DNA from: Anas platyrhynchos
Lineage: Eukaryota; Chordata; Aves; Anseriformes; Anatidae
Assembly (NCBI RefSeq): GCF_047663525.1
Contig: NC_092603.1
Span: forward strand, 785,501-849,500
Length of the DNA stretch: 64,000 bases
Direction of reading: 5' to 3'
Shown piece by piece: positions 12,401-64,000 of this stretch; position 1 is the first letter of the stretch, and each line of letters opens with the position of its first letter. The notes beneath the pieces were generated by a model. That model saw only the letters and a program-made list of their open reading frames with translations, searched no databases and was not told where the DNA came from. The position numbers were made by a program, and so were the translations under genes.

Positions 12401-15400
12401 TATTATGGGATGTCCCGTGACACTTTAGGGTGTCCCATGGTGCTGTAGGGGCCGTGCGGGCCCTGTGGGGTGTCCCATGACCCTATAAGCCCTATAGGGT
12501 GACCCCATAACCCCACAGTGGACCTGAGCAGCTGGCGGGCCCGCCTGGAGCGAGCGGCGGCGCGGGGCGAGGAAGAGGAGGAGGAGGAGGAGGAAGAGCG
12601 GGCGGCCGCCGCCGGGGGGGACACCGAGGCCACCGAGGACGGGGACGACCCCACAGGGCCCCCCCGGCAATGGGAACGCTACCGGCACGGGGTGCTCACC
12701 CTGGGCTGCGTCGGTACGGGACCCTAAAATCACTTCTAGGACCCCAAAACCCCGTATAGAACCCTAAAACCCCGTATAGGATCCTATAGGACCCTAAAAC
12801 CCCATATAGAACTCTAAAACCCCGTATAGGACCCTATAGGACCCTAAAATCCCCTATAGGACCCTAAAACCCCATATAGGACCCTATAGGACCCTAAAAC
12901 CCCATATAGGACCCTAAAACCCCCTCTAGGACCCTATAGGACCCTAAAACCCTCTCTAGGACCCTCTAGGACCCTAAAACCCCCTATAGAACTCTAAAAC
13001 CCCATATAGGACCCTATAGGACCCCAAAACCCCCTATAGAACCCTAAAACCCCCTCTAGGACCCTATAGGACCCTAAAACCCTCTCTAGGACCCTCTAGG
13101 ACCCTAAAACCCCCTATAGAACTCTAAAACCCCATATAGGACCCTATAGGACCCCAAAACCCCCTATAGGACCCTAAAACCCCCTCTAGGACCCTATAGG
13201 ACACTAAAAATCCCGCAGCCTCGCTCTTTATTCTTCCTGGTCCCTATAGGGCCCTAAAATCCACCCCCAGGACCCCAAAATGCCCCCCAAACCCCACTAT
13301 AGGACCCCGAAACCCCCCTATAACCTCACTCTTCATCTTCCCTGGTCACTATAGGACCCCAAAACCTCCCCTTAGGGCCCTAAAATCCACCCCCGGGACT
13401 CCAAAAACCCCCAGGGCCCCCCCAAAACCCTCCCCTGCCCCTATAGGACCCCAAACCCCCCTATAGGACCCCAAAACCCCCTATAGGACCCCAAAACCCC
13501 CTATAGGACCCCAACCTCCCCCCACAGATCCCTCCCACCTGGCGCGGGGTGGGCGTGGCCTCTGGGGGCGGTGGGCGTGGCCTGCGGGTGGTGGGCGGGG
13601 CTTGGGCATTGTGGGCGTGGCCTGATGGCCAAAGGGGGCGTGGCCTCGGGGTGAGCACTGGGAGTGCTCCATTGGGGCTGTCTCAGAGGGGGCGTGGCCT
13701 CCACCGAGTGGGCGTGGCTTCTACCGAAGGGGGCGTGGTTTCCACCGAAGGGGGCGTGGCCTGCAGCGTGTCCCCGCCCCCTCCCAGGCCTGCCCAACGC
13801 GGGGAAGTCGTCGGTGCTGAACGCGCTGGTGGGGCGCAGCGCCGTCAGCGTCTCGCGGGCCCCCGGCCGCACCCGTTACTTCCAGACCCACTTCCTCACC
13901 CCCCGAGTGCGTCTCTGCGACTGCCCCGGCCTCGTCTTCCCCTCCCGAGCACCCCCGGCTCTGCAGGTGAGTCCCAAATTGAGGCTTTTTGGCCCCAAAT
14001 TGAGCCGTTTTCCCCCCTGGTTGCTTCGTTTCCGCCCCAAATTGACCTGGTTTCCCCCCGGGTTGACCCATTTCCACTCCAAACTGACCTGTTTCCATCC
14101 CAAATTGACCCTTTTTCCTCCCAAATTGACCCTTTTCCCCCCAGGTCAACCCTTTTCCATCGCAAATTGACCCATTTTTCCCCCGGGTCGACCCATTTCT
14201 GCCCCAAAGTGACCTTTTCTCCTCCCACATTTAACTTTTTTCCCCCCAAAATTGATCCTTTTTTCACTCAGGTCAACCCCTTTACACCCCGAACTGACCC
14301 TTTTTCCCCCCAAGTTGACCCTTTTCTCTCCCAAATTGACCCTTTTACCCCTGGGGTTGCCGCTTTTCCATCCCAAATTGACCCTTTTCCCTCCAGGTCA
14401 ACTGTTTTCTGTCCCAAATTGACCCTTTTTCCCCTTGGGTCGCCATGTTTCCAATCCAAATTCACCCTTTTTTGCCCCAAATTGGCCATTTTTTCCCCCC
14501 TGGCCGACCCATTTCCACCCCCAAACTGATCCTTTTTCCCCCCAGGTTGACCCCTTTTCCCCTGGCTTGACCTGTTTCCACCCCAAATTGCCCTCTTTTC
14601 CCCCAGGGTTGCCCCATTTCTGCCCCAAATTGACTGTTTTCCCCCCAGATTGACCTGTTTTTGCCCAAAATTGATTCTTTTCCTCGGGTTGACCCATATC
14701 CGCCCCAAATTGACCCTTTTCCACCCCGGGTCGACCCTTTTCAGCCCCAAATTGAGCATTTCTGTTCTAAATTGAACCTTTCTCCCACTGGGTTGACCCT
14801 TTTCCACCCCAAATGGACCCTTTTCCACCCAAATTGCCCCCTTTTCCCTCAGATTGACCTGTTTCCACCCCAAATTGCCCCCTTTCCCCCCAGGTCGACC
14901 CATTTCCACTCCAAATTGCCCCCTTTCCCCTAAGGTCGACCCATTTCTGACCCAAATTGACCCTTTTTTCCTCCAGGCCAACCCGTTTCTGACCCAAATT
15001 GACCCTTTTTCCCCCCGGGTTGACCTATTTCTGCTCCAAATTGAACCTTTTTTCTCCAGGTTGACCCATTTCCCCCCCCAGGTTGACCCTTTTTCGCCCC
15101 AAATTGCCCCTTTTTCCCCCAGGTCAACCCATTTCTGTCCCCCCACCTCCAGTCTGACCCTTTTTCCCCCTGGGTCGCCATGTTTCCAATCCAAATTCAC
15201 CCTTTTTTGCCCCAAATTGACCATTTTTCCCCCCAGGTTGACCCCTTTTTCCCTGGCTTGACTTGTTTCCACCCCAAATTGTCCCCTAAATTGCCCCCTT
15301 TTCCCCTGGGTTGACCTGTTTCTGCTCCAAATTGACCTGTTTTCCCCCCGGGTTGACCTGTTACTGCCCAAAATTGACCCTTTTTCCCTCCGGGTCGACC

Positions 15401-20640: not shown

Positions 20641-22890
20641 CCCCAGAACGCCGCCGCCCTCACCCCAAATGACGTCATCGCCTGGACCAAACCTGCCCGA
20701 TTTCACCCCAAAACCGCTTTGAATCCACTTCGGGACCATCCTGCCAAAATCCCATTGTGGCTTTGACAGAATCGAGCTGTTTTTCCCCCAAAACTTCTTC
20801 GAACCCACTTCGCACCTTCCTTCCAAAATAAAACTGTAGCTTTGACAGAATCCAGCATTTTTTTCCCCAAAACCTCTTTGAACCCATTTTGGCACCTTCC
20901 TCTGAAAATCACACTGCAGCTTTGACAGAAAACAGCCGTTTTTCCCCCAAAACCTCTTTGAACCCACTTTGGAACTTTCCTCCCAAAATCCCATTGTGGC
21001 TTTGACAGAATTGAGCCGTTTTTCCCTCAAAACTTCTTCGAATCCATTTTGCAACCTTCCTTCCAAAATAACAGTGTGGCTTTGACAGAATCGAGGTGTT
21101 TTTCCCCCAAAACTTCTTCCATTCCACTTAGGGTCTTTCCTTCCAAAATGACACTGCGGCTTTGACAGAAAACAGCCGTTTTTCCCCCAAAACCTCTTGG
21201 AATCCACTTTGGAACTTTCCTTCCAAAATCCCATTGTGGCTTTGACAGAATCGAGCTGTTTTTGCCCCAAAACCTCTTTGAACCTTTTGAACATTTTGGC
21301 ACCTTCCTCCCAAAATTACACCGCAGCTTTGACAGAATCCAGCATTTTTTTCCCCAAAACCTCTTTGAATCCACTTTGGAACTTTCCTCTGAAAATCACA
21401 CTGCAGCTTTGACAGAAAACAGCTGGTTTTCCCCCAAAACCTCTTGGAATCCATTTTGCAACTTTCCTCTCAAAATCCCATTGTGACTTTGACAGAAAAC
21501 AGCCGTTTTTCCCCCAAAACCTCTTTGAACCCCCTTTGGCACCTTCCTTCCAAAATAACACTGTGGCTTTGACAGAATCCAACATTTTTTGCCCCAAAAC
21601 TTCTTTGAACCCATTTTGGCACCTTCCTTCCAAAATAACAGTGTGGCTTTGACAGAAAACAGCCGTTTTGGCCCCAAAAGTGCTTTTCATCCACGGTGGC
21701 ACCTTCCTTCCAAAATGATGCTGTAGCTTTGACGGAATCAAGCTGGTTTTCCCCCAAAACCTCTTTGAATCCACTTTGGAACTGTCCTCCCAAAATCCCA
21801 TTGTGGCTTTGACGGAAAACAGCTGGTTTTCCCCCAAAACCTCTTTGAACCCTTTTTGCCACCTTCCTCTGAAAATCACATTGCGGCTTTGACATAATCG
21901 AGCTGTTTTTGCCCCAAAACCTCTTTGAACCCATTTTGCAACCTTCCTTCCAAAATCACACTTCGGCTTTGACAGAATCAAGCCGTTTTTCCCCCAAAAC
22001 CTCTTCGAATCCAATTTGCAACCTTCCTCCCAAAATCCCATTGTGACTTTGACAGAATCGAGCCATTTTTCCCCCAAAACCTCTTTGAACCCATTTTGGC
22101 ACCTTCCTTCCAAAATAACAGTGTGACTTTGACAGAATCAAGCTGGTTTTCCCCCAAAACCTCTTTTAATCCACTTTGCAACCTTCCTTCCAAAATGACA
22201 CTTTGGTTTTGACGGAATCAAGGTGTTTTTGCCCCAAAACCTCTTTGAACCCTTTTTGGTACCTTCCTCTCAAAATCCCATTGCGGCTTTGACATAATCG
22301 AGCTGTTTTTGCCCCAAAACTTCTTCGAACCAACTTTGCAACCTTCCTTCCAAAATGAGACTTTGGTTTTGACGGAATCCACCCGTTTTCCCCCCAAAAC
22401 ACCTTCGAAACCCTACACCCATTCCGCCGCCTCCCGACCCATAAAAAAAAACAATTTTTTTTTTCCCCGAATCTCCCCGTTTCTCCCCCAAAACTGCTTT
22501 GAATCCACTTTGGAACCTTCCTCCCAAAATCCCATTGTGACTTTGACCAAAAACAGCCGTTTTTGCCCCAAAACCTCTTAGAACCCTTTTTGGCACCTTT
22601 CTCCCAAAATCCCATTGTGGCTTTGACAGAAAACAGCCGTTTTTCCCCCAAAACCTCTTTGAACCCACTTTGGAACTTTCCTCCCAAAATCCCATTGTGG
22701 CTTTGACAGAATCGAGCCATTTTTCCCCCAAAACCTCTTTGAACCCACTTTGCAACCTTCCTTCCAAAATAACACTGTGGCTTTGACATAATCGAGCTGT
22801 TTTTGCCCCAAAACTTCTTGGAACCCACTTTGCAACCTTCCTTCCAAAATGACGCTGTAGCTTTGACGGAATTGCACCGTTTTGTCCCCA
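20640..22890. repeat. 80-bp minisatellite upstream of TRIM39
   Basis: About 27 units of about 79-80 bp containing CCAAAACCTCTTTGAACCC, CTTCCTCCCAAAATCCCATT and GGCTTTGACAGAATCGAGC. At 22399-22492 the array is interrupted by a second copy of the segment lying directly before the TRIM39 start codon (22888-22982). Confidence 0.85.
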
Positions 22891-22992
22891 AAACACCTTC
22901 GAAGCCCTACACCCATTCCGCCGCCTCCCGACCCCAAAAAACCTTCAATTTTTTCCCCGAATCTCCCCGTTTTCCCCCCGAAACCCCCCACC

Positions 22993-25900
22993 ATGTCTTC
23001 CTCCGACCCTCTGGAGACCCTCCGCGTGGAAGCCAGCTGCTCGGTGTGCCTGGGCTACCTTCGGGACCCCGTCCTCCTGGAATGCGGCCACAATTTCTGC
23101 CGCTCCTGCATCACCCGCTGGTGGGCCGAGCTCTCCCGGGATTTCCCCTGCCCCGTTTGCCGAAAAACCTCGCGCCGCCGCGCCCTGCGCCCCAACCGCC
23201 AGCTGGCCAACATGGTCGAGGCCGCCCGGCAGCTCCGCGGCCCCAAAAGGAAAGCCAGCCCCGAAAACCCCGAAATTTGTTGTCAGATCCACGGGAGAGC
23301 CCTGGTGAGGTTTTGTCGCGAGGATCAAGCCCCCGCCTGCCGGCTCTGCGGGATTTCCAGCGCCCACCGCGCGCACCAAATGGTGCCCCTGGAGGAGGCG
23401 GCCCGGGAGTATAAGGTCGGGGGGTTTGGGGTTAGAATGAGGGGTTTTGGGGTTAGTTTGAGGGGTTTTGGGGTCGCTAGAGGGGGTTTGGGGCGGTAGG
23501 AGGGGTTTTGGGAGGGTACGAGGGGTTTTGGGGTTAATTCAAGGGGTTTTGGGGGGGGTACAAGGGGGTTTGGGGTTGCTCCTTCACCCCCCTCCTCTTT
23601 TTTTTCCTTTTTTTTTGTTTTTTCTTCTTTCTTTTTGTCTTTTTTATCTTTTTTTTTTCTCTTTTTCTTTTTTTTCTTTTTCTTTTTTTTCCTTTTTTTC
23701 CCTTTTCCCCTTTTTTCCTTTTTTCTCTTTTTTCTTTTTTTTTCTTTTTCTTTTTTCTTTTTTTCCTTTTTTCTCTTTTTCTTCTTTCTTTTTTCCTTTT
23801 TTTCTTTTTTCTTTTTCTTCTTGTTTTTTTTGTTTTTCTTTTTTTCCCTTTTTTCTTTTATTTCTTTTTTCTCTTTTTCCTCTTTTTTCTTTTTCTTTTT
23901 TCTTTTTCTCTTTTTTCTTGTTTTCTTTTTCTTTTTTTCTTTTATTTTTTCTGTTTTCTTGTTTCCTTTTTTCTTTTTTTCCTTTTTTCTTTTTCCCCTT
24001 TTTTTTCTTTTTTTCCTTTTTTCCTTTTTTCCTTTTTTCTTTTTTCCTTTTTTCTTTTTTCCTTTTTTTCTTTTTTCCTTTTTTTCCTTTTTTCTTTTTT
24101 CCTTTTTTCCTTTTTTCTTTTTTTCCTTTTTTTCTTTTTTCCTTTTTTTTCTTTTTTCCTTTTTTTCCTTTTTTCCTTTTTTTCCTTTTTTCTTTTTTTT
24201 TCCTTTTTTCTTTTTTTCCTTTTTTTCCTTTTTTTCCTTTTTCCTTTTTTTCCTTTTTTCTTTTTTCCTTTTTTCTTTTTCTCTTTTTTCTTTTTTCCCT
24301 TTTTTTTCTTTTTTTCCTTTTTTTCCTTTTTTTTCCTTTTTTTCCTTTTTTTCCTTTTTTTTTCCCTTTTTTCCTTTTTTCTTTTTTCCTTTTTTTCTTT
24401 TTTCCTTTTTTTTTCTTTTTTCCTTTTTTTCCTTTTTTCCTTTTTTCTTTTTTTTTCCTTTTTTCTTTTTTTCCTTTTTTTCCTTTTTTCTTTTTTCCTT
24501 TTTTTCCTTTTTTCTTTTTTTCCTTTTTTTCCTTTTTTTTTTTCCTTTTTTTCTTTTTTCCCTTTTTTTTCCTTTTTTCTTTTTTTCCTTTTTTCTTTTT
24601 TTCCTTTTTTCTTTTTTCCTTTTTTCTTTTTTCCTTTTTTCTTTTTTTCCTTTTTTTCTTTTTTCCTTTTTCCTTTTTTCATTTTTATTTTTTCATTTTT
24701 TCTTTTTTCCCTTTTTTCCCTTTTTTTCTTTTTTTCCTTTCCTCTAATTTTTTAAATTTTTCCCTCTTTCAGGAAAAGCTCCAAAATTTCCTCGAATCCC
24801 TGGAGCGCCGCCTCCAAGCCGTCTCCAGCTGCCGCGCGCGGGAGGAGAAAAAACCCAGCGAGCTCAAGGCAGGTGCGGGGCATTCCCTATAGGGTCGGGG
24901 GGTGGGAACCCCATTTCGGGACCTGCTTTTTAGGGTCTTGAGGCTCTCAAAACCCCCGTCCCCGCCAGAGGAAGGTGGCTTTGAGGCGGGAGAGGATCGC
25001 CCGCGAGTTCCAGGAGCTTCATCAGCTGCTGGAGGAAGAGGAGCGGCTGCTTTTGGGGCGGCTGGAGGAGGAGGAACGGGAAATCCTACAAAGGCTCCAG
25101 GCCAACCTGGAGCTCCTGGGGGAGCAGCGGAGGGCGCTGGGGGCCCTGGTGGCCGAGCTGGAGGAGAAATGTTTGCAGCCGGGGGCTGAGATGCTCAAGG
25201 TGCGACCCCAAAAGGGGGTTTTGGGGTCGGGGAGGGGGAATTTGGGGGATTGGGGGGGGAGCATTAGGAATGGGATCGTTGATTGGGGATGGGGTTGTCG
25301 GGAATGGGGTTGTTGATTGGGGATGGGATCCCCAGGAATGGGGTTGTTGATTGGGGTTGGGGTCATCAAGAATGGGATCATTGATTGGGAATAGGATCAG
25401 CAGGAATGGGGTCGTTGATTGGGTATGGGATTGTCGGGAATGGGGTTGTTGATATGGAATGGGATCACCAGGAATGGGATTCTTGTTTGGGGATGGGATC
25501 GTTGGGAATGGGGTCTTTGGGGATGGGATCAGCAGGAATGGGGTTGTTGATTGGGGTTGGGGTCATCAGGAATGGGATCATTGATTGGGAATGGGATCGC
25601 CAGGAATGGGGTCGCTGATTGGGAATGGGATCATCGGGAATGGGATCATTGAGTGGGAATAGGATCATTGGTAATGGGGTCTTTGGGGATGGGATCAGCA
25701 GGAATGGGGTTGTTGATTGGGGTTGGGGTCATCAAGAATGGGGTCGTTGATTGGGAATGGGATCACTGGGAATGGGGTCTTTGTTTGGGGATGGGATCAT
25801 TGGGAATGGGGTCTTTGGGAATGGGATCAGCAGGAATGGGATCGTTGATTGGGTATGGGATTGTCGGGAATGGGGTTGTTATTTGGGGTTGGGGTCATCA

Positions 25901-28900: not shown

Positions 28901-29330
28901 CACCCTCTACCCCTGCGTTTTGGGGTCGAGGGGCTTCACTTCGGGACGCCACTACTGGGAAGTGGAGGTGGGCGACAAAACCCATTGGGCTTTAGGGGTT
29001 TGTAAGGATTCGGTGAACCGTCAGGGCGACCCCCCAAATTTCCCCGAAACGGGATTTTGGAGGGTGAGGCTCTGGAACGGGGAAAATTACGCCGCCACCA
29101 CCCACCCCTTCACCCCGTTGAGGTTGCGGGTGAAACCTAAAAGGGTCGGGGTCTTCGTGGATTACGAGGAGGGGGAGGTGGCTTTCTACAACGTCACCGA
29201 CCGCTCGCACATCTTCACCTTCAGCGGCACCTTCACCGAAAAAATTTGGCCCCTTTTCTATCCCGGCCTCAGGGCCGGCAAAAAAAACGCCGCCCCCCTC
29301 GTCATCCGCTCGCCGACCGATTGGGAATGA
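22993..29330 (+). CDS. TRIM39: TRIM39, RING/B-box/coiled-coil/B30.2 E3 ubiquitin ligase
   Basis: TRIM39 is a RING-type E3 ligase linked to apoptosis and cell-cycle control. Exons: 22993-23415 (RING and B-box, Kozak CCACCATGT), 24773-24868 (96 bp), 24969-25199 (231 bp), 27353-27375 (23 bp), 27473-27591, 28784-29330 (PRY-SPRY). These are the canonical TRIM exon sizes. The RING starts at C16/C19 and runs to CPVC at 53-56; RWWAELSRDFPCPVCRKTS is near-identical to the human gene, as are SELEKNF, FPRQYFALRKI, GRHYWEVEVGDKTHWA and the end PTDWE. The PRY part changes frame at a run of seven C near 28870; an eighth C would keep one frame, so an assembly error is likely. Exon 2 ends AAG|GCAGGT, a GC donor. 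In mammals TRIM39 and RPP21 point the same way; here they diverge. Confidence 0.95.
23590..24765. repeat. 1.2-kb polypyrimidine tract (TTTTTTCC)n in TRIM39 intron 1
   Basis: Almost pure T and C on the sense strand, ending at the 3' splice site of TRIM39 exon 2 (tttcag, 24772). Predicted frames of Phe/Ser/Leu and, on the other strand, Lys/Glu are artefacts. Confidence 0.9.
25205..27235. repeat. TRIM39 intron 3 minisatellite (GGGATCATCAGGAATG)n
   Basis: Two kilobases of about 32-36 bp units (GGGAATGGGATCATTGATTG). No exon found inside; the next exon is the 23-bp one at 27353. Confidence 0.85.
27595..28780. repeat. TRIM39 intron 5 array (CCCCCTTTTTTCCCCCCAAA)n
   Basis: Pyrimidine-rich 17-20 bp units on the sense strand running up to the acceptor of the B30.2 exon at 28783. 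Confidence 0.85.
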
Positions 29331-31214: not shown

Positions 31215-34200
31215 ATGTCCCCTTCGTCCCCTTTGCCCCCCCCCCAGCGGGGTCCTTTGGCCCTATTGGCTTCGGCCACCCGTTGCGGGGTTTGCGGGGG
31301 GGCTTTTCGGGACCCGGTGCTTTTGGGGTGCGAGCACGGCTGCTGTCGCCGCTGCCTCCCCCCCGGGGACCCCGTAAATTGTCCCCAATGTCACCGGGGG
31401 TGGCCCCGAAACCGAATTCGGACCCCGGTGGCTTTGGCCGTCGAGGTTCGCATCGCCGACGCCTGGCGGGGGTCGCCGGGGGGGCCCCGGGGGGGGGACA
31501 GGAGGAGGATGAAGATGAGGAAGAGGAGGAGGAGAGGAGGAAGGGGATGAAGAGGAGGAGGAGGAAGGCGCAGAGGTGGAGGTGAGGGGGTTTTTTGGGG
31601 GGGTTTGGGGGGGTTTAAGGGGGTTTGGGGGGGGTTTGGGGGGGTTAAAGGGGTTTGGGGGGGTTAAAGGGGTTTTAAAGGGGGTTTGGGGGGTTTTGGG
31701 GGGGTTTTAAGGGGGGTTTGGGGGGTTTAAGGGGGTTTGGGGGGGTTAAAGGGGGTTTGGGGGGGTTAAAGGGGGGGGTTTTGGGGGGGAAAGGGGGTTA
31801 AAGGGGGGGTTTGGGGGGGTTAAAGGGGGTTTAAGGGGGGATTGGGGGGGTTAAAAGGGGAATTGGGGGGTTTAAAGGGGTTTTGGGGGGGGTTAAGGGG
31901 GGTTTGGGGGGCTTAAAGGGGGTTTGGGGGGAGTTTTGGGGGGCTTAAAGGGTTTGGGGGGATTTTGGGGGGGTTTAAGGGGGGTTGGGGGGGGGTTGGA
32001 GGGGTTAAAGGGGATTTAGGGGGAGTTTTTTTGGGGGAAAGGGGGTTTTGGGGGGGTTATAAGGGGGTTAAGGGGGGTTTGGGGGGGTTAAAGGGGATTT
32101 AGGGGGAGTTTTTTAAGGATTAAAGGGGGTTTAAGGGGGGGTTGGGGGGTTAAAGTTTTTTTTTGGGGGGGTTAGGGGGGTTTGGGGGGGTAGGGCGGTT
32201 TAAGGGGGTTTAAAGGGGGTTAAAGGGGTTTAGGGGGAGGTTTGGGGGGTTTAAAGGGGGTTTGGGAAGTTTTTGGGGGGATAAAGGGGGTTTGGGGGGG
32301 TTTGGAGGGGTAAAGGGGATTTAGGGGGAGTTTTTTTTGGGGAAAGGGGGTTTTGGGGGGTATAAGGGGGTAAGGGGGTTTGGGGTACGGGGTTAGGGGG
32401 AGTTTTTGGGATTAAAGGGGTTTAGATTGGGGGGTGGGGGTTTGGGGGGGCTTAAAACGCCCGGGGGTATAAGGGGGGTTTGGGGGGCTTAAAGGGGATT
32501 TAAAAGGGGTTAAAGGGGGTTTAAGGGGTAATTAGGGGAGAGGAAAGGGGGTTAAAGGGGGGGTTTGGGAGGGTTAAAGGGGGTTTAAGGGGGGATTTGG
32601 GGGGGTTAAAAGGGGAGTTGGGGGGGTTAAAAGGATTTGGGGGGGTTAAAGGGATTTGGGGGGTTTGAGGGAGTTTGGGGGACTTAAAAGGGATTAGGGA
32701 AGTTTTTGGAGTTTGGAGGATTAAAGGGGAGTTGGGGGGGTTAAAAAGGGATTTGAAGGGGTTAAAGGGGTTTTGGGAGTTTAAGGGAAGTTTGAGGGAA
32801 GTTTGGGGGTTCAGGGAGTTTAGAGAGGTTAAAAGGAATTTCAAAGTTTTGCAATTAAAAGAGATTTAAAGAGAAATTGGGGGTTAAAGGTTTTTTTTGG
32901 GGGGGTTAAGGGGGATTTGGGGGGCTTAAAAGGGGGTTTGGGGGGGTTAAAGGGGGTTTAAAGGGGGTTAAAGGGGTTTTGGGGGTGATTATGGGGGATT
33001 AAAGGGGGACTTGGGGGGGTTAAAGGGGAGTTTGGGGGGTTAAAGGGGGGGTTGGGGGGGCTTAAGGGGTTTTGGGGAGGAGTTAAGGGGGAGTTTGGGG
33101 GATGTTCAAAGGGGTTTGGGGGCGCTAAAGAGGGTTTAAGGGGGTTTGGGGGGGCTTAACGGGAAATTTTGGGGATGTTTAAAGGGGTTTGGGGGGGCTT
33201 AAGGGGGTTTGGGGGGGTAAAGGTATGTTGGGGGGGCTTAAGGGGGAGTTTTGGGGGACATTAAAGGGGTTTTAAGGGGGGGTTTGGGGGGGGTAAAGGG
33301 GGTCTGGAGGGGGGGTTGTAGGGGATTTTGGGGGGGTTAAGGGTGTGGGGGGGAGTTTTGGGGGTCTTGAAGGGGTTTGGGGGGGTCAAAGGGGGTTTGG
33401 GGGGGTCAAAGGGAACTTAGGGGGGATTTAGGGGAAATTTAGGGGATTTCGGGGGTGGGGGGATTAAAGGATTGGGGTCTTTGTGGGGGGGGGGGGGCAT
33501 TTTAGGGCGCTGGGGGGGATCTGTGGGGTCGGGGGGGGGGGGACCCCAAATCCCGGGTGACCTTTTTGTCCCCTTCCTTGACCCCGGTGACCCCCCGGGG
33601 GGGTGACACCGGCCGGGTGACATTTTTGGGGCCAATTTATGGGGTGACACTTTCGGGCCGGGTGACAATTTTTTGGGGTGACACCGGGCCGGGTGACATT
33701 TTTCACGTGCCGCCCCCCGGGCGGTGACACCCGCGGTGACACCGCCTGACGTGGCCGGGGGGGACGGCCCCCGCCCTTGTTTTGGTGTTTTTTTTCCTTG
33801 TTTTGGGTTTTTTCCCCTCGATTTAACGTTTTTCCCCTTGTTTTTGTGGTTTTTCCCCTTTTTTTGGTGATTTTTCCCCTATTTTTTGTGTTTTTCCCTT
33901 TTTTTTGGTGATTTTTCCCCTTGTTTTTGTGCTTTTCCCCTTTTTTTTGGGTGATTTTTCCCCTTGTTTTTGTCTTTTTCCCCTTTTTTTGGTGATTTTT
34001 CCCCCTTTTTGGTGTTTTTCCCCTTGTTTTTGTGTTTTTCCTTTTTTTTTTTGGTGGTTTTTCCCCTTTTTTTGTGTGTTTTTCCCCTTTTTTTGGTGAT
34101 TTTTCCCCTTGTTTTTGTGTTTTTCCCCTTTTTTGGTGATTTTTCCCCTCTTTTTTGTTTTTCCCCTTTTTTTGGTGATTTTCCCCCCCCTCGTTTTGGG

Positions 34201-54218: not shown

Positions 54219-55562
54219 ATGCTGAAGAAGAGCAGCCTGGTGCTGTGGGGGGCGGCGCTCTTCATCGCCTGGAACGGCCTCCTCCTCCTCTTCCTCTGGA
54301 GCCGCCCGCCCTCCTCTTCCTCCTCCTCCTCCTCCTCTTCCTCAGCCGAACGGAGCCGGTTAACGGAGGAGGTGATCCGCTTGGCTCAGGATGCCGAAAC
54401 CGAGCTGGAACGCCAAAAAGAGCTCCTGCGCCAAATCCACCGCTACAGCGGGCTGTGGGGCCGCCGCCGGGCGCCCCCAAAAATCCCCCAAACTCCCTCC
54501 CCGCCCCCCGTAGCGCCCGAAGGGGGCGACACGACGGTGCTCCCGGTGCTGGTGCTGGCTTGCGACCGCAGCACGGTGCGGCGGTGCCTCGATAAACTCC
54601 TCCGCTACCGCCCTTCGGCTCAACGTTTCCCCGTTATCGTCAGCCAGGACTGCGGGCACGCCGAAACGGCGCGGGTCATCGCCTCGTACGGCGACGCCGT
54701 GGCTCACATCCGTCACCCCGAGCTCGGCGACGTCCCCGTCCCCGCCGAGCACCGAAAATTTCAAGGTTATTACAAAATCGCCCGGCATTACCGCTGGGCT
54801 TTGGGGCAAATCTTCCGCACTTTCCGCTACCGCGCCGCGATCGTGGTGGAGGACGATTTGGAGGTGGCGCCGGATTTTTTTGAGTATTTCCAAGCTGCTT
54901 TTCCCCTCCTCCTCGCCGACCGGAGCCTTTGGTGCGTTTCGGCGTGGAACGACAACGGCAAGGAGCAGATGGTGGACGCCGGGCAAGCCGAGCTGCTTTA
55001 CCGCACCGATTTCTTCCCCGGTTTGGGTTGGTTGCTCCTCGCCGAGTTGTGGGACGAGCTGGAACCCAAATGGCCTCGGGCTTTTTGGGACGATTGGATG
55101 AGGCAACCCGAACAACGGCGGGGCCGCTCGTGCATCCGCCCGGAGGTATCCCGCACCATGACTTTTGGCCGCAAAGGGGTGAGCCACGGGCAGTTTTTCG
55201 ACCAGTACCTAAAATTCATCAAGCTCAACGACCGCTTCGTGCCTTTCACCCGCTTGGACCTCTCCTACCTCAAAAAGGAGGAGTACGAACGCTCCTTCTT
55301 GCCCCGCGTCTACGCGGCGCCCGAGGTGCGGGTGGAGGAGCTGCAGGGCAACCAACGCCGCGAGCTGGGCGCCGTCCGCGTGCAGTACACCGGCCGCGAT
55401 TCCTTCAAAGCCTTCGCCAAAGCTTTGGGGCTGATGGACGACCTCAAATCCGGCGTGCCCCGCGCCGGCTACCGCGGCATCGTCAGCTTCGTTTATCGGG
55501 GGCGCCGCGTTTATCTCGCCCCCCCCTCGGACTGGACGGGCTACGACCCCAGTTGGAGTTAG
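54219..55562 (+). CDS. MGAT1: MGAT1, N-acetylglucosaminyltransferase I
   Basis: MGAT1 is the medial-Golgi type II enzyme that adds the first GlcNAc to Man5GlcNAc2 and so opens hybrid and complex N-glycan synthesis. One intact coding exon, 447 aa (human 445). It shows a short cytosolic MLKK, a signal anchor (about residues 6-27), a serine-rich stem, then the GT13 domain. Key pieces: LACDRSTVRRCLDKLL, VSQDCGH, HRKFQGYYKIARHYRWALGQ, the metal/nucleotide-binding EDD at residues 211-213 (same numbering as mammals), WCVSAWNDNGKEQMVD, FFPGLGWLL, MTFGRKGVSHGQFFDQ, VRVQYTGRDSFKAFAKALG and a GYDPSW end. The start gives MLKKSSLVLWGA, close to human MLKKQSAGLVLWGA. The coding exon is preceded by a 3' splice site at 54177, duplicated upstream in a 134-bp array. 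Confidence 0.98.
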   Translation: MLKKSSLVLWGAALFIAWNGLLLLFLWSRPPSSSSSSSSSSSAERSRLTEEVIRLAQDAETELERQKELLRQIHRYSGLWGRRRAPPKIPQTPSPPPVAPEGGDTTVLPVLVLACDRSTVRRCLDKLLRYRPSAQRFPVIVSQDCGHAETARVIASYGDAVAHIRHPELGDVPVPAEHRKFQGYYKIARHYRWALGQIFRTFRYRAAIVVEDDLEVAPDFFEYFQAAFPLLLADRSLWCVSAWNDNGKEQMVDAGQAELLYRTDFFPGLGWLLLAELWDELEPKWPRAFWDDWMRQPEQRRGRSCIRPEVSRTMTFGRKGVSHGQFFDQYLKFIKLNDRFVPFTRLDLSYLKKEEYERSFLPRVYAAPEVRVEELQGNQRRELGAVRVQYTGRDSFKAFAKALGLMDDLKSGVPRAGYRGIVSFVYRGRRVYLAPPSDWTGYDPSWS

Positions 55563-55879: not shown

Positions 55880-56925
55880 CCTGGGCGTTACAGGCCATAA
55901 ATTCCTTTATATGGGTTATATGGGACCATATTGTGTAGGGTCTGGTCCTTATATATGGCTTTAGGGCCTTTATATGGGGTATATGGGACCATATTGTGTA
56001 GGGTCTGGTCCTTATATATGGCTTTAGGGCCTTTATATGGGACCATATTGTGTAGGGTCTGGTCCTTATATATGGCTTTAGGGCCTTCATATGGGTTATA
56101 TGGGACCATATTGTGTAGGGTCTGGTCCTTATATATGGCTATAGGGCCTTTATATGGGTTATATGGGACCATATTGTGTAGGGTCTGGTCCTTATATATG
56201 GCTTTAGGGCCTTTATATGGGTTATATGGGACCATATTGTGTAGGGTCTGGTCCTTATATATGGCTTTAGGGCCTTTATATGGGTTATATGGGACCGTAT
56301 TGTGTAGGGTCTGGTCCTTATATATGGCTATAGGGCCTTTATATGGGTTATATGGGACCATATTGTGTAGGATCTGGTCCTTATATATGGCTTTAGGGCC
56401 TTTATGTGGGTTATATGGGACCATACTGTGTAGGATCTGGTCCTTATATATGGCTATAGGGCCTTTATATGGGTTATATGGGACCATATTGTGTAGGGTC
56501 TGGTCCTTATATATGGCTATAGGGCCTTTATATGGGTTATATGGGACCATATTGTGTAGGGTCTGGTCCTTATATATGGCTTTAGGGCCTTTATATGGGT
56601 TATATGGGACCGTATTGTGTAGGGTCTGGTCCTTATATATGGCTTTAGGGCCTTTATATGGGTTATATGGGACCATATTGTGTAGGGTCTGGTCCTTATA
56701 TGTGGCTATAGGGCCTTTATATGGGTTATATGGGACCATATTGTGTAGGATCTGGTCCTTATATATGGCTTTAGGGCCTTTATATGGGTTATATGGGACC
56801 ATATTGTGTAGGGTCTGGTCCTTATATGTGGCTTTAGGGACTTTATATGGGTTATATGGGACCATATTGTGTAAGGTCTGGTCCTTATATATGGCTTTAG
56901 GGTCTTGGTGTAATATTTTAGGCCC
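55880..56925. repeat. 63-bp minisatellite downstream of MGAT1
   Basis: About 16 copies containing GGTCTGGTCCTTATATATGG, CTTTAGGGCCTTTATATGGG and TTATATGGGACCATATTGTG. Because 63 is a multiple of 3, both strands stay open for 380-420 codons. There is no other sign of coding. Confidence 0.9.
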
Positions 56926-56929
56926 TTTA

Positions 56930-57985
56930 TGGTTTGGGATCCGCATCAGGCGGTCCCTATATGAAATAGGGACCTGGATCCCAAATATAGGGACCTGGAT
57001 CCCAAATACACGGGGCTGTGTCCTATATCCTGCTCCCCTCACTCCATCTGCCCCATCCTACGCCCCGCTCCCTGCCCTATATGTTCTGCACCACCCTTTT
57101 TGTATAGGGGATTTATATTTGGGTCTGGGGGTGTCATTTTTTGAGCCAAAAAGCCCTTTTTATTTTACAAAACCCACATTTTTTTATATCAAATAAACCC
57201 CGAGCTCTGTGGCTTTTTTGAGGCTCGTGGCTTGCCCCGTGCTGAAGCGGGCAGTGAGGGTTTAGGACGAGAAAAAATTGCTCAGTTCTGGTCTTTTTTT
57301 TAGGGAAAAATGCCTCTTTTTGGAGCAGGGAAGGTTATGAAATGGAGCGATGAAATTGGGATAAAAAGAGGGGAAAAGGGCAGCGGGAGGGACTGGGTAA
57401 AGGGGTGAAAACAGGGAAAAGTGATGCAACGAGCTGGGGATTTGCTGCTCCCCAGCAGGTTTTGGGTTAAATCAGGGTGATTTTTAGGGACGAGGAAGAA
57501 AAAAGGGGAAGTATTAGGATTATGAACGCTTTTCAAGCAGTGGCACTGATGTTTTCTTAAACTTCTCCTCGGTTTGGGTTTCTTGCCGAGCTCACCCCGG
57601 GTAAAAGGCACAAATAAAATAAATTATTTAACAGAAAACACCCCTAAATGTAATTTACTCAATTTTAGGGGGAATTTATAAATTTGTATAATTTACCCGT
57701 TACAGCCCCAAATGAGCCTTTTGAGCCGCATTTTTACCCAACCCTCTCCTTTTTTATACAGATCCCACATTTAACCAGCGTCCCCTGTGACCCCGTTCTT
57801 CCTCCTGCTGCCTTTTTCACTAAAAACCCTCCAAAAACGATCAAAAATTTAAAAAAGGCAATTTTAACGCTTCTGAATGGCCGCTCGGGGAGAACGGCGG
57901 CGCAGTCCTCACTCAGGTCCGCTCCCGCCATTGCCCGCCGCGCTTCGCCGCTCTCGCGGGCTTCAATCAGGTCCGCGCCGTGGGG
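56930..57985. other. Unique intergenic stretch upstream of the H3-like gene
   Basis: Mixed composition, rising to a CpG island from about 57870. No gene, RNA or mobile element recognised. Confidence 0.5.
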
Positions 57986-57989
57986 CGGG

Positions 57990-58100
57990 GAGAGCGCCGT
58001 GTGGAGTGACCAATGGGGGCGCCGCTGCGGGGGCGCCGACCAATCAGAGGGCGCCTGGCGCCTATAAAAGGGAGCGCGGCAGAGCGCGCGAGCCATTTGG
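57990..58100 (+). promoter_or_regulatory. TATA/CCAAT promoter of the histone H3-like gene
   Basis: CCAAT boxes at 58010-58014 and 58040-58044 are followed by a perfect TATAAAA at 58063-58069. That places the start site near 58094 and leaves a 5' UTR of about 20 nt. Two CCAAT boxes, TATA and a tiny leader are the layout of replication-type histone genes. It is the only clear TATA promoter in the window. Confidence 0.75.
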
Positions 58101-58114
58101 GTAGCGCAGGGGCT

Positions 58115-58465
58115 ATGGCACGGGTGAAGCAGGCGGTGGGGGCGCAGCCTGGTAAAAAAACAATTAAAAAATCCAAATTAAAACCTCCATCAACATCGCT
58201 GACTCGTCGGGTCTCGGCGCTGCGTAAGAAGCTTCGTTTTTCCCGGAAGCGCTTCTTTTTGAGGCTCCCTACGGCGTTTATTCGCGGGCTGCTGGGGGAA
58301 TTTGGGCTCCACGTGGCCGCCTGGGCAGCACTGTGGGCGGGCTGCGAGGTTCATCTCTTAACTCTGCTTGAAAATTGGGGGCTGTGCGCCCGCCACGCCA
58401 AGCGAGCTGTCGTGGAAGCTGCCGACGTGAGGCTGGTGAGGTGCATTCAGAGGAAAAGAGTCTGA
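58115..58465 (+). CDS. Divergent histone H3-like protein (novel variant)
   Basis: One intronless frame of 116 aa. It begins MARVKQAVGAQPGKK, matching the H3 tail MARTKQTARKSTGGK at A1, R2, K4, Q5 and K14 but with K9 and S10 replaced. The tail is shorter than H3's 135 aa. It then aligns along the histone fold: ALRKKLRF (alpha-N), RLPTAFIRGLLGEF for KLPFQRLVREIAQDF (alpha-1), ALWAGCEVHLLTLLEN for ALQEASEAYLVGLFED (alpha-2), GLCARHAKRAVV for NLCAIHAKRVTI, and DVRLVRCIQRKR for DIQLARRIRGER (alpha-3). Loop 1 is about four residues shorter than in H3. The LCA-HAKR signature points to the H3 proper lineage rather than CENP-A. The ATG lies just after a TATA/CCAAT promoter; an earlier in-frame ATG is upstream of the TATA box. 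Nuclear, nucleosomal function is inferred. A decaying H3 retrocopy is less likely with an open frame and its own promoter. Confidence 0.75.
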   Translation: MARVKQAVGAQPGKKTIKKSKLKPPSTSLTRRVSALRKKLRFSRKRFFLRLPTAFIRGLLGEFGLHVAAWAALWAGCEVHLLTLLENWGLCARHAKRAVVEAADVRLVRCIQRKRV

Positions 58466-58711
58466 TTTTCCCTGGGGGGTCAGCGCCAGCGAGCTGACTC
58501 AGGGCCTGTGGAGCTCTCAGAAAGGCAACTTTTTTTTTGTTTGTGCTTGTTTGCTGCTTGTTTTGGCTTTGATGCTTACAAGTTGAAGCTTTTTTGACGA
58601 AAAGGAGAAGAAATCAGAGCATCGGGAGCTTGTCTCTTGTCGGAGCACGGCGCTGCCAAGAAACAATTTAATTTATTTAATTTATTCACGCAAGGAGCCG
58701 TTGGATGGCGT

Positions 58712-58717
58712 AATAAA
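58712..58717 (+). terminator. Poly(A) signal downstream of the H3-like gene
   Basis: AATAAA 247 bp after the stop. I found no canonical histone 3' stem-loop after the stop, so the mRNA is probably polyadenylated, as for replacement variants. Confidence 0.5.
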
Positions 58718-59460
58718 AGCACGGTACTCGTGCCAAAAGGCTCCCTTGAGCAACCTCTTGTGTTTGGAAAGCGACCTGATGGAAAAAAAAAAAACCTACC
58801 TCGTGGAGAAGAGTGAATTACAAACCCTGGGCTGTAATTTTGGTTTGGCGGAGATCTGAGCCGCTGCGGTTTGTCGATGGCCTGATTTAAGTTTTTGGGG
58901 CCCTGGGGATGAAAGCGGCCGCCCTCCTCGGTGCCTTTTCTGGTGTTTTTTGCTCTTTCCTAGCCTGGTAAGCCGAATTTTTGTGAGTGAGGCACAGCGA
59001 GGAGGTGGTGAAATGGTGATAAAAGCCTGGCCCCACAGCCCAGCAACGATTGTGGCACCGAGCGACCTGGGCAGGACCAGGATGTGGTTTTGGTGCAATT
59101 TCTCCTTTTTATGGGTTGAAAGCGCTCGGTGCGAGCTAAAAATAACCCAAGTCCCCCCCCCCGGCCCCATTTCAGATCCACGAAAGGGATCCCTGAGGGC
59201 TCTGGATCCCTGTTACCGCCTTCACCCACCCTCGTGGTGTTTATTTTCCCTTAAATCTCATAATTTTCCCCTTAAAAATTGCCTTTCCTCCTGTCTCTGG
59301 GCGTCTGTTATCTTATAAAACTCCCTTAAAACCTCATTAGAGCAAATAGCCCCGATCTCACGCTAATTCCACCCAATATCACCACGCGTTTACTCTAATA
59401 CAGCTCCGGGCAATGCCCATTTTAATGGGGAAAATAAATTAATTTGTTTTTTTTTTTCAG

Positions 59461-60141
59461 GGCCTGAGGCGGGTTTTAAAGGATTTCCCCCAGGTAAGAA
59501 GTGGAAAATTTTATTATAAATCCCTTTTTTTCTGGTGAGAAAAACTTCAGGGCTGTGTGAGTTCACAATCCATAAATGGACTTTTTCACTTAAAAAAACC
59601 CTTTTACAACACATCTATTATCTCCTCCATGATAAATTTCTCCTTTTTTGGGGGCATTTCTCCCCATTTTTTGGGTGTGCACGTGGCTGGGTGTGACCTG
59701 ACCTGGGCTCAGTGCTGTGTTGGGGAGGATTTGACCACCCCTGTGCCTGCTCCCGTGGGGAATTTGGTGCTCCAGGTGATGATGAACCAGCTCCTGATCC
59801 TTTTTTTTTAACAAAATAATGAAAAAAAACAACAAGGAAGGGGACAGCTGGAAGGTGCATGCCTCAACCTAGAGAGAAAACCCACCAAGAGAGGCTAAAT
59901 GTGCTAATTCCTTATTTTTTCCTCTTTTTTTTTTTCTGTATTTTTTCCTTTTTTTCAGGCATGTGCCAGTGGAAAATCATCTGAGAATTCAAGAAATCCA
60001 CCAGAACCTGCAGAGGGCAGAGCTGAGATTTCTGCAGGAGGAGGAAGAGGCCAGAATCACCAAAATAGTGGGGAAAAAAAACACAATTTTGGTCCAAACA
60101 GCCACGATGCTACACAGAAAACACCAGGAGCTTGATATCAG
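59461..60141 (+). CDS. Two candidate exons of an unidentified gene
   Basis: 59461-59493 is a 33-bp mini-exon with a long T-tract ending in cag and a CAG|GTAAGA donor. 59959-60141 (183 bp) also has a T-tract acceptor and an AG|GTGGGG donor. In one frame the second exon reads as an amphipathic, coiled-coil-like stretch (LRIQEIHQNLQRAELRFLQ, then EEEEARITKIV and MLHRKHQELDIR). In the frame that continues the mini-exon it is also open but looks non-protein-like. I do not recognise it. It could belong to the H3-like transcription unit or to a separate gene. Confidence 0.3.
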
Positions 60142-60529
60142 GTGGGGAAAACCCCACGGTGCTGAGCTTTGGGACCTAATTTCCTTTTTTTTTCCCCATT
60201 TTTTGCTCTCATTCAGCGCCGGTTTCTTCCTCCAGGATCCTAAAAACACGAGCAAAAGGAGGATTTTTCCCTCAAAAAGCACTTTCTCTGGGAAAATGCT
60301 TCCTGCTGGCCTGGGTGCAATTTCCTTTGTTTTTTTTTTTTTTGTTTTTTTTTTTTCCATTTTCCCCTCTTTCTGGCAAATATTAAATGGTGAAATGGGA
60401 ACCCTGGCGCAGCGCTTCCTACGGGGAAGGGCGGAGATGAGGACACTTCCCCTATTTTGCTGTTTTTAGGACTTATTTCAGCAATTCTGAAACCCGAAGC
60501 AATCGCACTGGGTTTTGGGTCCATTTCTG

Positions 60530-61060
60530 TGCATTTAAGGGGAGTTTGGGGTCTTCCGTTGCATTTAAGGGGAATTTTGGGTCCGTCCTGTTGCATTTAA
60601 AGGGATTTTGGGGTCTTCTGTTGCATTTAAAGGGAATTTTGGGTCCGTCCTGTTGTATTTAAAGGGAATTTTGGGTCCATCCTGTTGCATTTAAGGGGAA
60701 TTTTGGGTCCATCCTGTTGCATTTAAAGGGAATTTTGGGTCCGTCCTGTTGCATTTAAGGGGAATTTTGGGTCCGTCCTGTTGCATTTAAGGCGAATTTT
60801 GGGTCCGTCCTATTGCATTTAAAGGGATTTTGGGTCCGTCCTGTTGCATTTAAGGGGAATTTTGGGTCAGTCCTGTTGCGTTTAAAGGGATTTTGGGTCC
60901 ATCCTGTTGCATTTAAAGGGAATTTGGGTCCGTCCTGTTGCATTTAAAGGGATTTTGGGTCCGTCCTGTTGCATTTAAAGGGATTTTGGGTCCGTCCTGT
61001 TGCATTTAAGGGGAATTTGGGGTCTTCTGTTGCATTTTAGGGGAATTTGGGGTTTGTCCA
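60530..61060. repeat. 31-bp array (GTTGCATTTAAAGGGATTTT)n
   Basis: About 16 units of 31-33 bp ending in GGGTCCGTCCT, downstream of the B30.2 gene. Confidence 0.85.
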
Positions 61061-61242: not shown

Positions 61243-63399
61243 TTAGGGGCAGAAAGTGAGCAGGGCCGGCCCTTCTCCCAACCACAGCAGGGGTCTCAGC
61301 CTCTCCCCGGCGAAGGCTGCGGGGGGAAAGGCGAAAATCTCCACCTCGCTATCGGCGTCCCGAAAAGCCACCCTCCCTCCCCCGTAATCCAGGGCCACCT
61401 CGATGCGTTTCGGCACCCGGGCCAGGTGCAGGCAGGTGGGACTTGGCCAGGTGAGCGCCCTCAATTGCCCCAACCACTGCCCCACAGCCCAAACGCCCCG
61501 CGCGGGGCTCAACCCGAAACATCCCTTGCGGGGCACGAATTCCCGAGCCACCCCCAAAGCCCAGTCGGGTCCCGGTGACACCTCCACCGCCCAACGGTGC
61601 CGTCCTGCGGCGAAACCCTGGCGGCCCAAAACGCACCGAAGAGCCTCGAAACGCTCCGAGCTCCCCGGAGGAGGGTCCCGAGGGGTTTTGCGCCGCCGGG
61701 CGCTGCGGCCGTCCGGGGACACCAGGATTTGGGGGTGAGCGGTGGCCGGGTCCAGGGTGACGTTCGCTGGGGGGACAAAAGGGTTCGGGGCTTGAGTCCT
61801 GATTATTTGGTGCATCCCGTTATCAGCTCCAAATAGTGCACCCCAATATCGGCTTCGGGTTTTGCTCTAGGGCGTCAGATCCAAATATTGCACCCCAATA
61901 TCAGCTCTGGGTCTTGGTCCCAATTATCGACTCCAAATATTGATCCGGATTATCAATTTTGGGAGTCGAACCCGATTTTCAGCTCCAAATATTGCTCCAG
62001 ATTATCAGTTTTGGGAGCTGAACCCAATTATCAGCTCCAAATATTGCTCCAGATTATCAATTTTGGGAGTCGAACCCAATTATTGGCTCCAAATATTGCT
62101 CCAGATTATCAGTTTTGGGAGTCGAACCCAATTATCAGCTCCAAATATTGCTCCAGAACACCGGTTTTGGGAGCTGAACCCAATTATCAGCTCCAAATAT
62201 TGCTCCAGATTATCAGTTTGGGAGCTGAACCCGATTATCAGCTCCAAATATCGCTCCAGATTATCAGTTTTGGGAGTCAAACCCAATTATCAACTCCAAA
62301 TATTGCACATCCTATCAGCTCTGGATCTTGCACCTGCTCCAGATATTGCTCCAGAATATCAGTTTTGGGAGTCGAACCCGATTACCAGCTCCAAATATTG
62401 CTCCAGATTATCAGTTTTGGGAGTCAAACCCAATTATCAGCTCCAAATATTGCTCCAGATTATTAGTTTGGGGAGTCGAACCCAATTATCAGCTCCAAAT
62501 ATTGCTCCAGATTATCAATTTTGGGGAGCTGAACCCGATTATCAACTCCAAATATTGCTCCAGATTATCAATTTTGGGGAGCTGAACCCGATTTTCAGCT
62601 CCAAATATTGCTCCAGATTATCAGTTTGGGGAGTTGAACCCGATTTTCAGCTCCAAATATTGCTCCAGATTATCAGTTTGGGGAGTTGAACCCAATTAAC
62701 AGCTCCAAATATTGCTCCAGATTATCAATTTTGGGAGTCAAACCTGATTATCAGCTCCAAATATTGCTCCAGATTATCAGTTTTGGGAGTCGAACCCAAT
62801 TATCAACTCCAAATACTGCTCCAGAATCTCAGCTCTGGGTTTTTCAGCCCCAAATATTTGATATTAAACCAGAACTCGAGGTCTAAACGTGGCCCTGACG
62901 CCGGATTTACCTTTCTGGTACCCCCCCAGGTCTTCCTCCAGGGAGCAAGCCAGGACATCTGAAAACAGAGAAAAAACCCAAAGATTTACAGCCCTGCGTC
63001 CAGCCCCTCCTTCCCCACCTCTTCTGGGCATTAAGAACTAATTAATGCCCTGAACACTTAATTAAAGCCCTGATTTAATCACTAATTAATTGTCTGCAGC
63101 TCTCCCTCCCTTAAGGGAGCTATAATGGGTCTCTAGGGTGAAAATTATTATTTTTTTTTAATTTCAATTAACGGGTGTTTGGTGAATTTGGACTTCCCAA
63201 CCCAATTTTGCCAGCTCTTGGGACGCCTGCCCCCCACCCAGGCTTCATTTTCTGCTCATGAAATCACTGTTTTTTGCCCCATTTTCCCCTCCAGGTACCT
63301 TTGAGCCTCTCCACCACCGCTTCCAGGGCGTTGTTTTTTTGGGAGAAGTCCTCGAGCTCCGCTTCGAGCTCCAGCGGCCGCGGCCTCTGCTCCGTGCTC
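61243..63399 (-). CDS. 3' end of a butyrophilin/TRIM-type B30.2 gene, runs off right edge
   Basis: Exons in transcript order: about 63399-63299 (coiled coil: ELEAELEDFSQKNNALEAVV), 62958-62911 (VLACSLEEDLGGYQK), 61766-61243 (PRY-SPRY). Phases agree at every junction. PRY starts ANVTLDPATAHPQILVS; SPRY carries CVLGRQGFAAGRHRWAVEVS, WALGVAREFVPRKG, GVWAVGQW, RIEVALDYGGGRVAF and ends LLTFCP. This style (GVARE.. RKG.. GVWAVGQW) is that of avian butyrophilin and TRIM7/10/27-type B30.2 domains, which bind phospho-antigens or protein ligands. It is not the RNF39 SPRY moved away, as strand and linker exons differ. The upstream boundary of the first exon is uncertain, and RING/B-box or Ig exons would lie beyond 64000. 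Confidence 0.85.
61850..62840. repeat. 52-bp minisatellite in the last B30.2-gene intron
   Basis: About 18 units of 52 bp: CTCCAAATATTGCTCCAGAT, TATCAGTTTTGGGAGTCGAA, CCCAATTATCAG. It lies between the PRY-SPRY exon and the exon at 62911. Confidence 0.85.
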
Positions 63400-63479: not shown

Positions 63480-64000
63480 AAAGCCGGGGAGAAGCAAAAA
63501 ATAGAGGATTTTGTGCCCAAAAATAGAGGGTTTTGTGCCCCAAAATAGAGGATTTCATGGCGCAGAAATAGAGGATTTTGTGCCCCAAAGTAGAGGAGTT
63601 TTGTGCTCCAAAATTGAGTTTTGGTGGTGTTTTTTTTGGTGCCCAAAAATAGACAATTTTATGGCCTAAAAATAGAGGGTTTTATGACCCCAAAGTAGAG
63701 GTATTTGGGCCTCCGAAATAGCAGAGTTTTGTGCCCCCAGAATAGAGGGGGTTTGGAGCCAAAAATAGAGATTTTTTTATGCCCCCAAAATAGTCTTTTT
63801 GTGCCCCCAAAATAGAGGAGTTTTGTGGCCTCCAAGTAGGGGATTTTTGTGGCCCAAAATAGAGGAATTTATGGCCCCAAAATAGAGGTTTTTTTGTGCC
63901 CCAAAGTAGCCAGGTTTGGGGCCCCAAAATGGAGTCCTTTTTGTGCCCCCAAAGTAGAGGGGTTTTGTGCCCAAAAATAGAGGATTTTATGGCCCAAAAA
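63480..64000. repeat. (CCCCAAAATAGAGGATTTTGTG)n array
   Basis: About 20 units of 20-28 bp, in an intron of the B30.2 gene on the minus strand, continuing past the window edge. Confidence 0.8.

Follow-up and report, generated by a model that had tools for sequence, protein, structure and literature searches.

Histone H3 is among the most conserved of animal proteins. A short reading frame in the waterfowl DNA studied here (the window, i.e., the whole 64-kb stretch that was analysed) raises the question of whether it encodes an H3, how far back such a gene can be traced and what its product could do in chromatin. A first, sequence-only reading had proposed an undescribed, divergent H3 variant with a promoter of its own.

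An intact frame for a divergent histone H3

The frame comprises 116 codons plus a stop codon, from the ATG at 58115 to the TGA at 58463-58465, and its translation contains no internal stop, while each of the two remaining forward frames across the same interval carries at least four. It is intact and intronless, as had been claimed, and the H3 hallmarks listed in the sequence-only reading are in place: the ARxKQ-type N-terminus is present as MARVKQ, RLP at the start of α1 occupies residues 50-52, the LCA-HAKR signature appears as LCARHAKR at residues 90-97, and the α3 pattern D(I/V)(Q/R)L is DVRL at residues 104-107. Retention of K14 holds in part: a lysine is literally there, but it sits in a GKK run in a tail that is poorly conserved among family members. 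Residues 9 and 10, counted without the methionine, are alanine and glutamine, so that K9 and S10 are indeed absent from the window protein. The proposed shortening of loop 1 is correct for the anseriform lineage; in the alignment, five anseriform rows lack seven residues at the α1/loop-1 junction relative to other birds.

The best match of the window protein in the PDB is H3.1 (phmmer, E 2.9e-8, residues 6-115), which scores 37 bits compared with 34.3 bits for H3.Y (5ay8). A profile search, suggested beforehand as a check on the H3 assignment, was run against the PDB with six family members and returned H3.1 at E 1.4e-13. With these significant matches to the H3 family, the protein encoded by 58115-58465 is, judged by its sequence, a divergent histone H3. 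The Pfam Histone model (PF00125) matched the window protein at E 2.9e-4 with 21.5 bits, which falls short of the gathering score (26.4); all five scanned relatives (P0003-P0007) lie above it with 32.0-36.0 bits. Over H3 positions 84-135 the identity to H3.1 is 38% for the window protein and 45% on average for the 67 rows of the bird clade defined below. AlphaFold2 predicts four helices for the window protein, with block means above 90 from residue 71 onwards, and in both models the block means for residues 71-110 exceed pLDDT 90. Upon superposition, 47 residues of the model fit onto H3 84-130 at 1.3 Å.

Features of the H3 variant gene and its surroundings in the window
Feature	Position	Strand	Basis
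MMR_HSR1 GTPase exon	13664-14167	+	E 6.7e-12
RING/B-box and SPRY exons and a weak RING frame, upstream	22882-23496, 28920-29327, 31215-31547	+	Domain search
MGAT1-type gene (GNT-I family), intact, single-exon; closest recognised gene upstream of the H3 variant	54219-55562	+	E 4.2e-188
Two CCAAT boxes (58010-58014, 58040-58044)	58010-58044	+	Exact matches
TATA box TATAAAA, 52 bases 5' of the ATG	58063-58069	+	Sequence; presumed promoter role
Frame of the divergent H3 variant, 116 aa and stop	58115-58465	+	Frame, homology and family searches
N-terminal tail, residues 1-28, begins MARVKQ; no ARKS or VKKP	58115-58198	+	Sequence, alignment
Basic αN-like helix, residues 29-48	58199-58258	+	AlphaFold2, low confidence here; family consensus LxKKLRxSxKK-like
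Shortened α1, residues 53-61, followed by the anseriform junction with the seven-residue deficit	58271-58297	+	Alignment and AlphaFold2, low confidence
α2, residues 66-94; W88 = H3 position 107, C91 = C110, H94 = H113	58310-58396	+	AlphaFold2 and column counts
α3, residues 102-113; D104 = H3 D123, L107 = L126, C110 = position 129	58418-58453	+	AlphaFold2, column counts
Polyadenylation signal AATAAA, 247 bases past the stop codon	58712-58717	+	Sequence; presumed use
PRY-SPRY exon, downstream of the H3 variant	61246-61815	-	Domain search

Promoter, 3' end and genomic surroundings

The promoter described in the sequence-only reading, two CCAAT boxes and TATAAAA, was found at 58010, 58040 and 58063. 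TATAAA occurs 39 times in the window (11 sites on the forward and 28 on the reverse strand), and no site other than that at 58063 is preceded by two CCAAT boxes within 110 bases. The region 57860-58120 is CpG-rich, with a GC content of 0.69 and an observed/expected CpG ratio of 1.11. At the 3' end, too, the initial description held, with AATAAA at 58712 in place of a histone stem-loop. An Rfam scan of the whole window yielded no family at its gathering score, and the histone 3' stem-loop was not among the four sub-threshold matches at E<=10 over 58000-59300, the best of which was Xist_exon1 on the reverse strand (E 0.018, 18.9 bits vs 50). Directly past the stop codon, inspection by eye revealed a perfect 6-bp hairpin (GTCAGC/GCTGAC, 8-base loop, 58479-58498, forward strand), which Rfam did not call as a histone stem-loop.

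Genes of TRIM or butyrophilin-like type lie around the H3 variant, which suggests an MHC-linked region; we assume a resemblance to the MHC-linked TRIM/butyrophilin region and take the MMR_HSR1 exon to be GNL1-like. Between the H3 variant and the downstream SPRY exon lies a coiled-coil-looking forward frame (59959-60466) without a Pfam match, probably part of a further gene; a tttttttcag resembling a 3' splice site stands directly before it at 59958. Large minisatellite arrays flank the gene on both sides (55904-56906, 60513-61053, 61875-62839 and 63498-64000), including a 63-bp unit repeated 16 times, a 32-bp unit repeated 17 times and a 52-bp unit repeated 19 times, among others.

A gene family in birds

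A single-sequence search with the window protein gave six matches among 23 candidates. P0002 is 95% and P0003 88% identical to the window protein, followed by proteins from Anser brachyrhynchus (77%), Anseranas (72%), Chauna (68%) and Chordeiles (52%). With a six-row profile, 62 of 7995 scored sequences matched, 54 of them bird-type (E <=1.3e-18) and the other eight H3-like at E 1.7e-9 or worse. A 33-row profile matched 71 of 7998 scored sequences; new among these were 13 bird-type proteins (P0064-P0076), two turtle proteins of 139 aa each (Caretta caretta and Terrapene triunguis) and two more H3-like rows. The bird clade analysed here thus comprises 67 rows, i.e., the window protein and 66 relatives, 62 of which carry bird species names. 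Its range extends from tinamou, rhea and emu (the palaeognath members are Dromaius, Rhea and Nothocercus) through Anseriformes to many Neoaves. The lineages of Anser (Anseriformes), Terrapene (Testudines) and Nothocercus (Tinamiformes) were looked up, and the remaining species are assigned to orders as we presume them to belong. Passerines, parrots, falcons, galliforms and crocodilians are not among the species-named rows, which may reflect the limit of the search. The expectation of a conserved frame in related birds is borne out by the three sequence and profile searches. The sequence-only reading understated the age of the family, which extends to palaeognaths, Anseriformes and a large number of Neoaves and, probably, to turtles.

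In a tree of 48 rows and 95 columns, in which many other forks stay open, the window protein pairs with P0003 and stands beside Anser, followed by Anseranas and Chauna; this group of five is supported at 96/92. The three palaeognaths group together at 99/97. With the palaeognath and anseriform groups recovered and the window protein beside Anser, the gene tracks species descent in these parts of the tree, as predicted by vertical descent; the window itself would most likely come from a member of the duck family.

The database entries found for the family carry automatic names; that of P0076 (Melanerpes formicivorus) is "histone H3.Y-like". This gene model contains seven tandem copies of NGEAVA at loop 1 and the start of α2, which represent either a repeat expansion within the histone fold or an artefact of assembly or model. 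In P0051, P0052 and P0074 (Indicator, Ramphastos and Pogoniulus, presumably all piciform), leucine replaces the near-universal tryptophan at H3 position 107.

Conserved and altered residues of tail and core

The start M[AV]R[AVS]K[QR] is found in 13 of 17 full-length rows, the turtle rows among them; the four exceptions are P0002, in which the same start is internal, and the gene models P0040, P0041 and P0076. The ARTKQ start typical of H3 is therefore kept in relaxed form only. The ARKS motif that surrounds K9 and K27 is absent from the 13 full-length rows with this start and from all 67 bird rows, most of which are tail-less. Beyond the window copy, the loss of K9 stands insofar as ARKS has gone from the full-length relatives, but some lysine is found at position 9 in another context in three of the 13 rows (P0019, P0047 and Terrapene). 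VKKP, the K36 context, is kept only in Terrapene among these rows. With neither ARKS nor VKKP in its tail, the window protein has no counterpart of the K9, K27 and K36 sites. Three to nine lysines remain within the first 40 residues of the 13 full-length rows, so that other marks are possible. The αN motif ALR is preceded by 33 residues in the window protein, 25-44 in other bird members and 46 in H3.1.

Over H3 84-135, eight of 52 columns are invariant in the 67 bird rows, namely A88, L92, C110, A111, A114, R116, D123 and L126. H113 is present in 65 rows, and C96 and E105 in 64 each. Among these columns, we assume, are residues that hold H3 and H3' together at the dyad; α2-α3 and the residues of the H3-H3' bundle, both features of the H3 family, are found here. 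Three exchanges relative to canonical H3 are near-universal: tryptophan at position 107 (T107W, 62/67), valine at 127 (A127V, 64/67) and cysteine at 129 (R129C, 63/67). All three occur together in 56 of the 67 bird rows and in both turtles. None of 12 comparison rows (H3.1, CENP-A and ten other H3-like proteins) has the set, W107 or C129, and V127 occurs in one of them (Brassicogethes). K115 is present in 55 bird rows and replaced by glycine in five. K122 is absent from all 67 (alanine in the window protein); R83 persists in four and T118 in six, and both turtles have R83 and T118. Mean pairwise identity among the 63 bird rows of one alignment amounts to 0.51 for αN, 0.52 for α1 and loop 1, 0.78 for α2 and 0.66 for loop 2 and α3 (1953 pairs for each of the last two regions). 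Together with 0.36 for the tail (78 pairs), these values form the pattern expected of selection on the fold.

Origin of the variant

When aligned with ordinary H3, the turtle protein matches over its whole length at 41% identity and also carries the diagnostic residues of the birds, and therefore looks like an intermediate. A common origin of the bird and turtle proteins has to be weighed against independent recruitment of H3 in the two groups, which would leave the bird variant with only crown-bird age. Independent recruitment draws on the much greater closeness of the turtle protein to canonical H3, on the R83 and T118 that turtles retain and on an AU test that does not reject placement of the turtles with other H3s (p 0.099). 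However, birds and turtles are joined in two trees (99/90 in the 48-row tree and 99/97), both turtles have the W107, V127 and C129 set that the comparison rows lack, and over H3 84-135, 66 of the 67 bird rows resemble the better-matching of the two turtle rows more closely than H3.1 (means 0.52 and 0.45). We thus regard separate recruitment as unlikely, though it retains some weight, and judge the bird-turtle link, as read from these alignments and trees, to be well supported but not proven; in view of the AU value, a common origin is likely. In the 48-row tree, the sister group of the bird-turtle clade consists of two long-branch invertebrate rows; the tree program flagged their joining with each other as possibly false. 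That the variant is a second, CENP-A-like centromeric H3 appears extremely improbable. Fast evolution would suit it, and although the best tree separates the two, kinship with CENP-A is not rejected (AU p 0.434, with one CENP-A row only). The motifs speak against it. CENP-A is characterised by an insertion in loop 1 and by HAGR at the end of α2/loop 2; the window protein has no such insertion and reads HAKR, glycine replaces K115 in the five bird rows mentioned, the ARxKQ-like start is kept, and mean identity over the family is 0.38 to human CENP-A vs 0.45 to H3.1.

A proposed role in chromatin

We consider it probable that the locus is a working single-exon, replication-independent H3 variant gene of waterfowl, belonging to an old and fast-evolving class that is found in many birds and most likely in turtles. 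Transcription from the CCAAT/TATA promoter would yield a polyadenylated mRNA without the histone stem-loop, and expression would hence not be tied to S phase. Because C110, H113, R116, D123 and L126 are kept, the protein is predicted to pair with H4 via the conserved α2 and α3 and to build a four-helix bundle of the H3-H3' type. T107W, A127V and R129C, which we take to lie at the edge of this bundle, may favour self-type pairing. In birds, the loss of R83, T118 and K122 could weaken the grip on DNA and result in labile nucleosomes or tetrasomes, an effect to which the shortened α1/loop 1 of Anseriformes may add. The ARxKQ-like tip would be the sole recognisable canonical mark site in bird tails, so that a K4-type mark is possible and the usual K9, K27 and K36 marks are not; chromatin made of such nucleosomes would be refractory to both heterochromatin and Polycomb marks. 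The germline- or stage-specific role put forward in the sequence-only reading is a guess; rapid evolution suggests use in the germ line or early embryo. A more far-reaching proposal is that of a separate vertebrate H3 class at least as old as the turtle-bird ancestor, which, with a rebuilt H3-H3' interface (W107, V127, C129), would form homotypic, easily opened nucleosomes, probably in germ cells, and whose bird tail would offer K4 only and be immune to the usual K9/K27/K36 marking. We put this forward tentatively, as possible and still doubtful.

Two different fates of the gene must also be considered. The product could be a histone-fold protein that descends from H3 and is no longer nucleosomal, pairing with H4 or another histone-fold partner in a DNA-binding or chaperone-like capacity. 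Such a capacity would fit the scarcity of R83 and T118 and the absence of K122 in bird rows as well as the shortened anseriform α1, and it would agree with structural scores that tie with the MHF1, TFIID and CENP-T folds and with weak sub-threshold Pfam matches to CENP-S or CENP-T in the window protein and three of the five scanned relatives. Yet the ARxKQ-like tip and C110, H113, R116, D123 and L126 belong to the most strongly conserved features of the family, for which a non-nucleosomal protein has no obvious need, and a departure from the nucleosome is in our view quite improbable. Alternatively, the window copy may be a pseudogene in decay, with the family still functional in other birds. 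Its Pfam score is the lowest among the six scanned members, and it carries tryptophan at H3 93 and alanine at 117, neither of which occurs in the other four anseriform rows (overall, W93 is found in three and A117 in 35 of 67 rows). Decay is nevertheless very unlikely, as the frame with its start and stop codons is intact along with the promoter and poly(A) motifs, the near copies P0002 and P0003 are intact as well, and all eight invariant residues are present.

Novelty and significance

The bird-turtle H3 variant appears unstudied. No paper on it was found in the open-access literature, by title and start of abstract, among the matches listed. In the nomenclature paper (PMC3380720) and a 2021 review (PMC8015243), the passages located for bird, avian and chicken deal with linker histones, and none of six bird, reptile or vertebrate terms occurred in PMC13396413 upon a term search. 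The initial label "undescribed" applies to the open-access literature, but automatically named entries, among them "H3 protein, partial" and "histone H3-like", are already present in databases. If our reading is true, an H3 class has been kept through bird evolution with K9 and K27 lost and the core diverged by half or more, which would reveal how few features of H3 suffice for a nucleosome. Such a natural H3, with hardly any site besides K4, would serve to test which elements of the histone code can be taken apart. The genes have already been sequenced in dozens of birds, and the proposal is therefore directly testable.

Comparison with known H3 histones

Like canonical H3 (H3.1/H3.2/H3.3), the variant has an ARxKQ-like start, the helix order αN-α1-α2-α3 and LCAxHAKR, together with C110, H113, R116, D123 and L126. 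Unlike canonical H3, it lacks ARKS and carries T107W, A127V, R129C and K122A, and unlike replication-dependent H3 it has a poly(A) signal and no stem-loop found by Rfam. H3.Y/H3.X of primates and H3.4 and H3.5 of the mammalian germ line are lineage-limited H3 variants as well. They are near-canonical over their whole length, a trait that the window protein with its 38% identity to H3.1 over H3 84-135 does not share; the bird-turtle family is far more divergent and has lost the K9 and K27 contexts. According to the literature, lineage-limited variants such as H3.Y/H3.X and H3.4 are restricted in use (PMC8015243, PMC3380720), and spermatogenesis is often the setting in which tissue-specific H3 variants are expressed, possibly with a destabilising effect on nucleosomes (PMC8015243). 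With CENP-A, another member of the H3 family without ARKS, the variant shares a divergent tail and fast evolution. It differs from CENP-A in that the window protein lacks the loop-1 insertion, has HAKR in place of HAGR and has kept both LCAxHAKR and the ARxKQ-like start.
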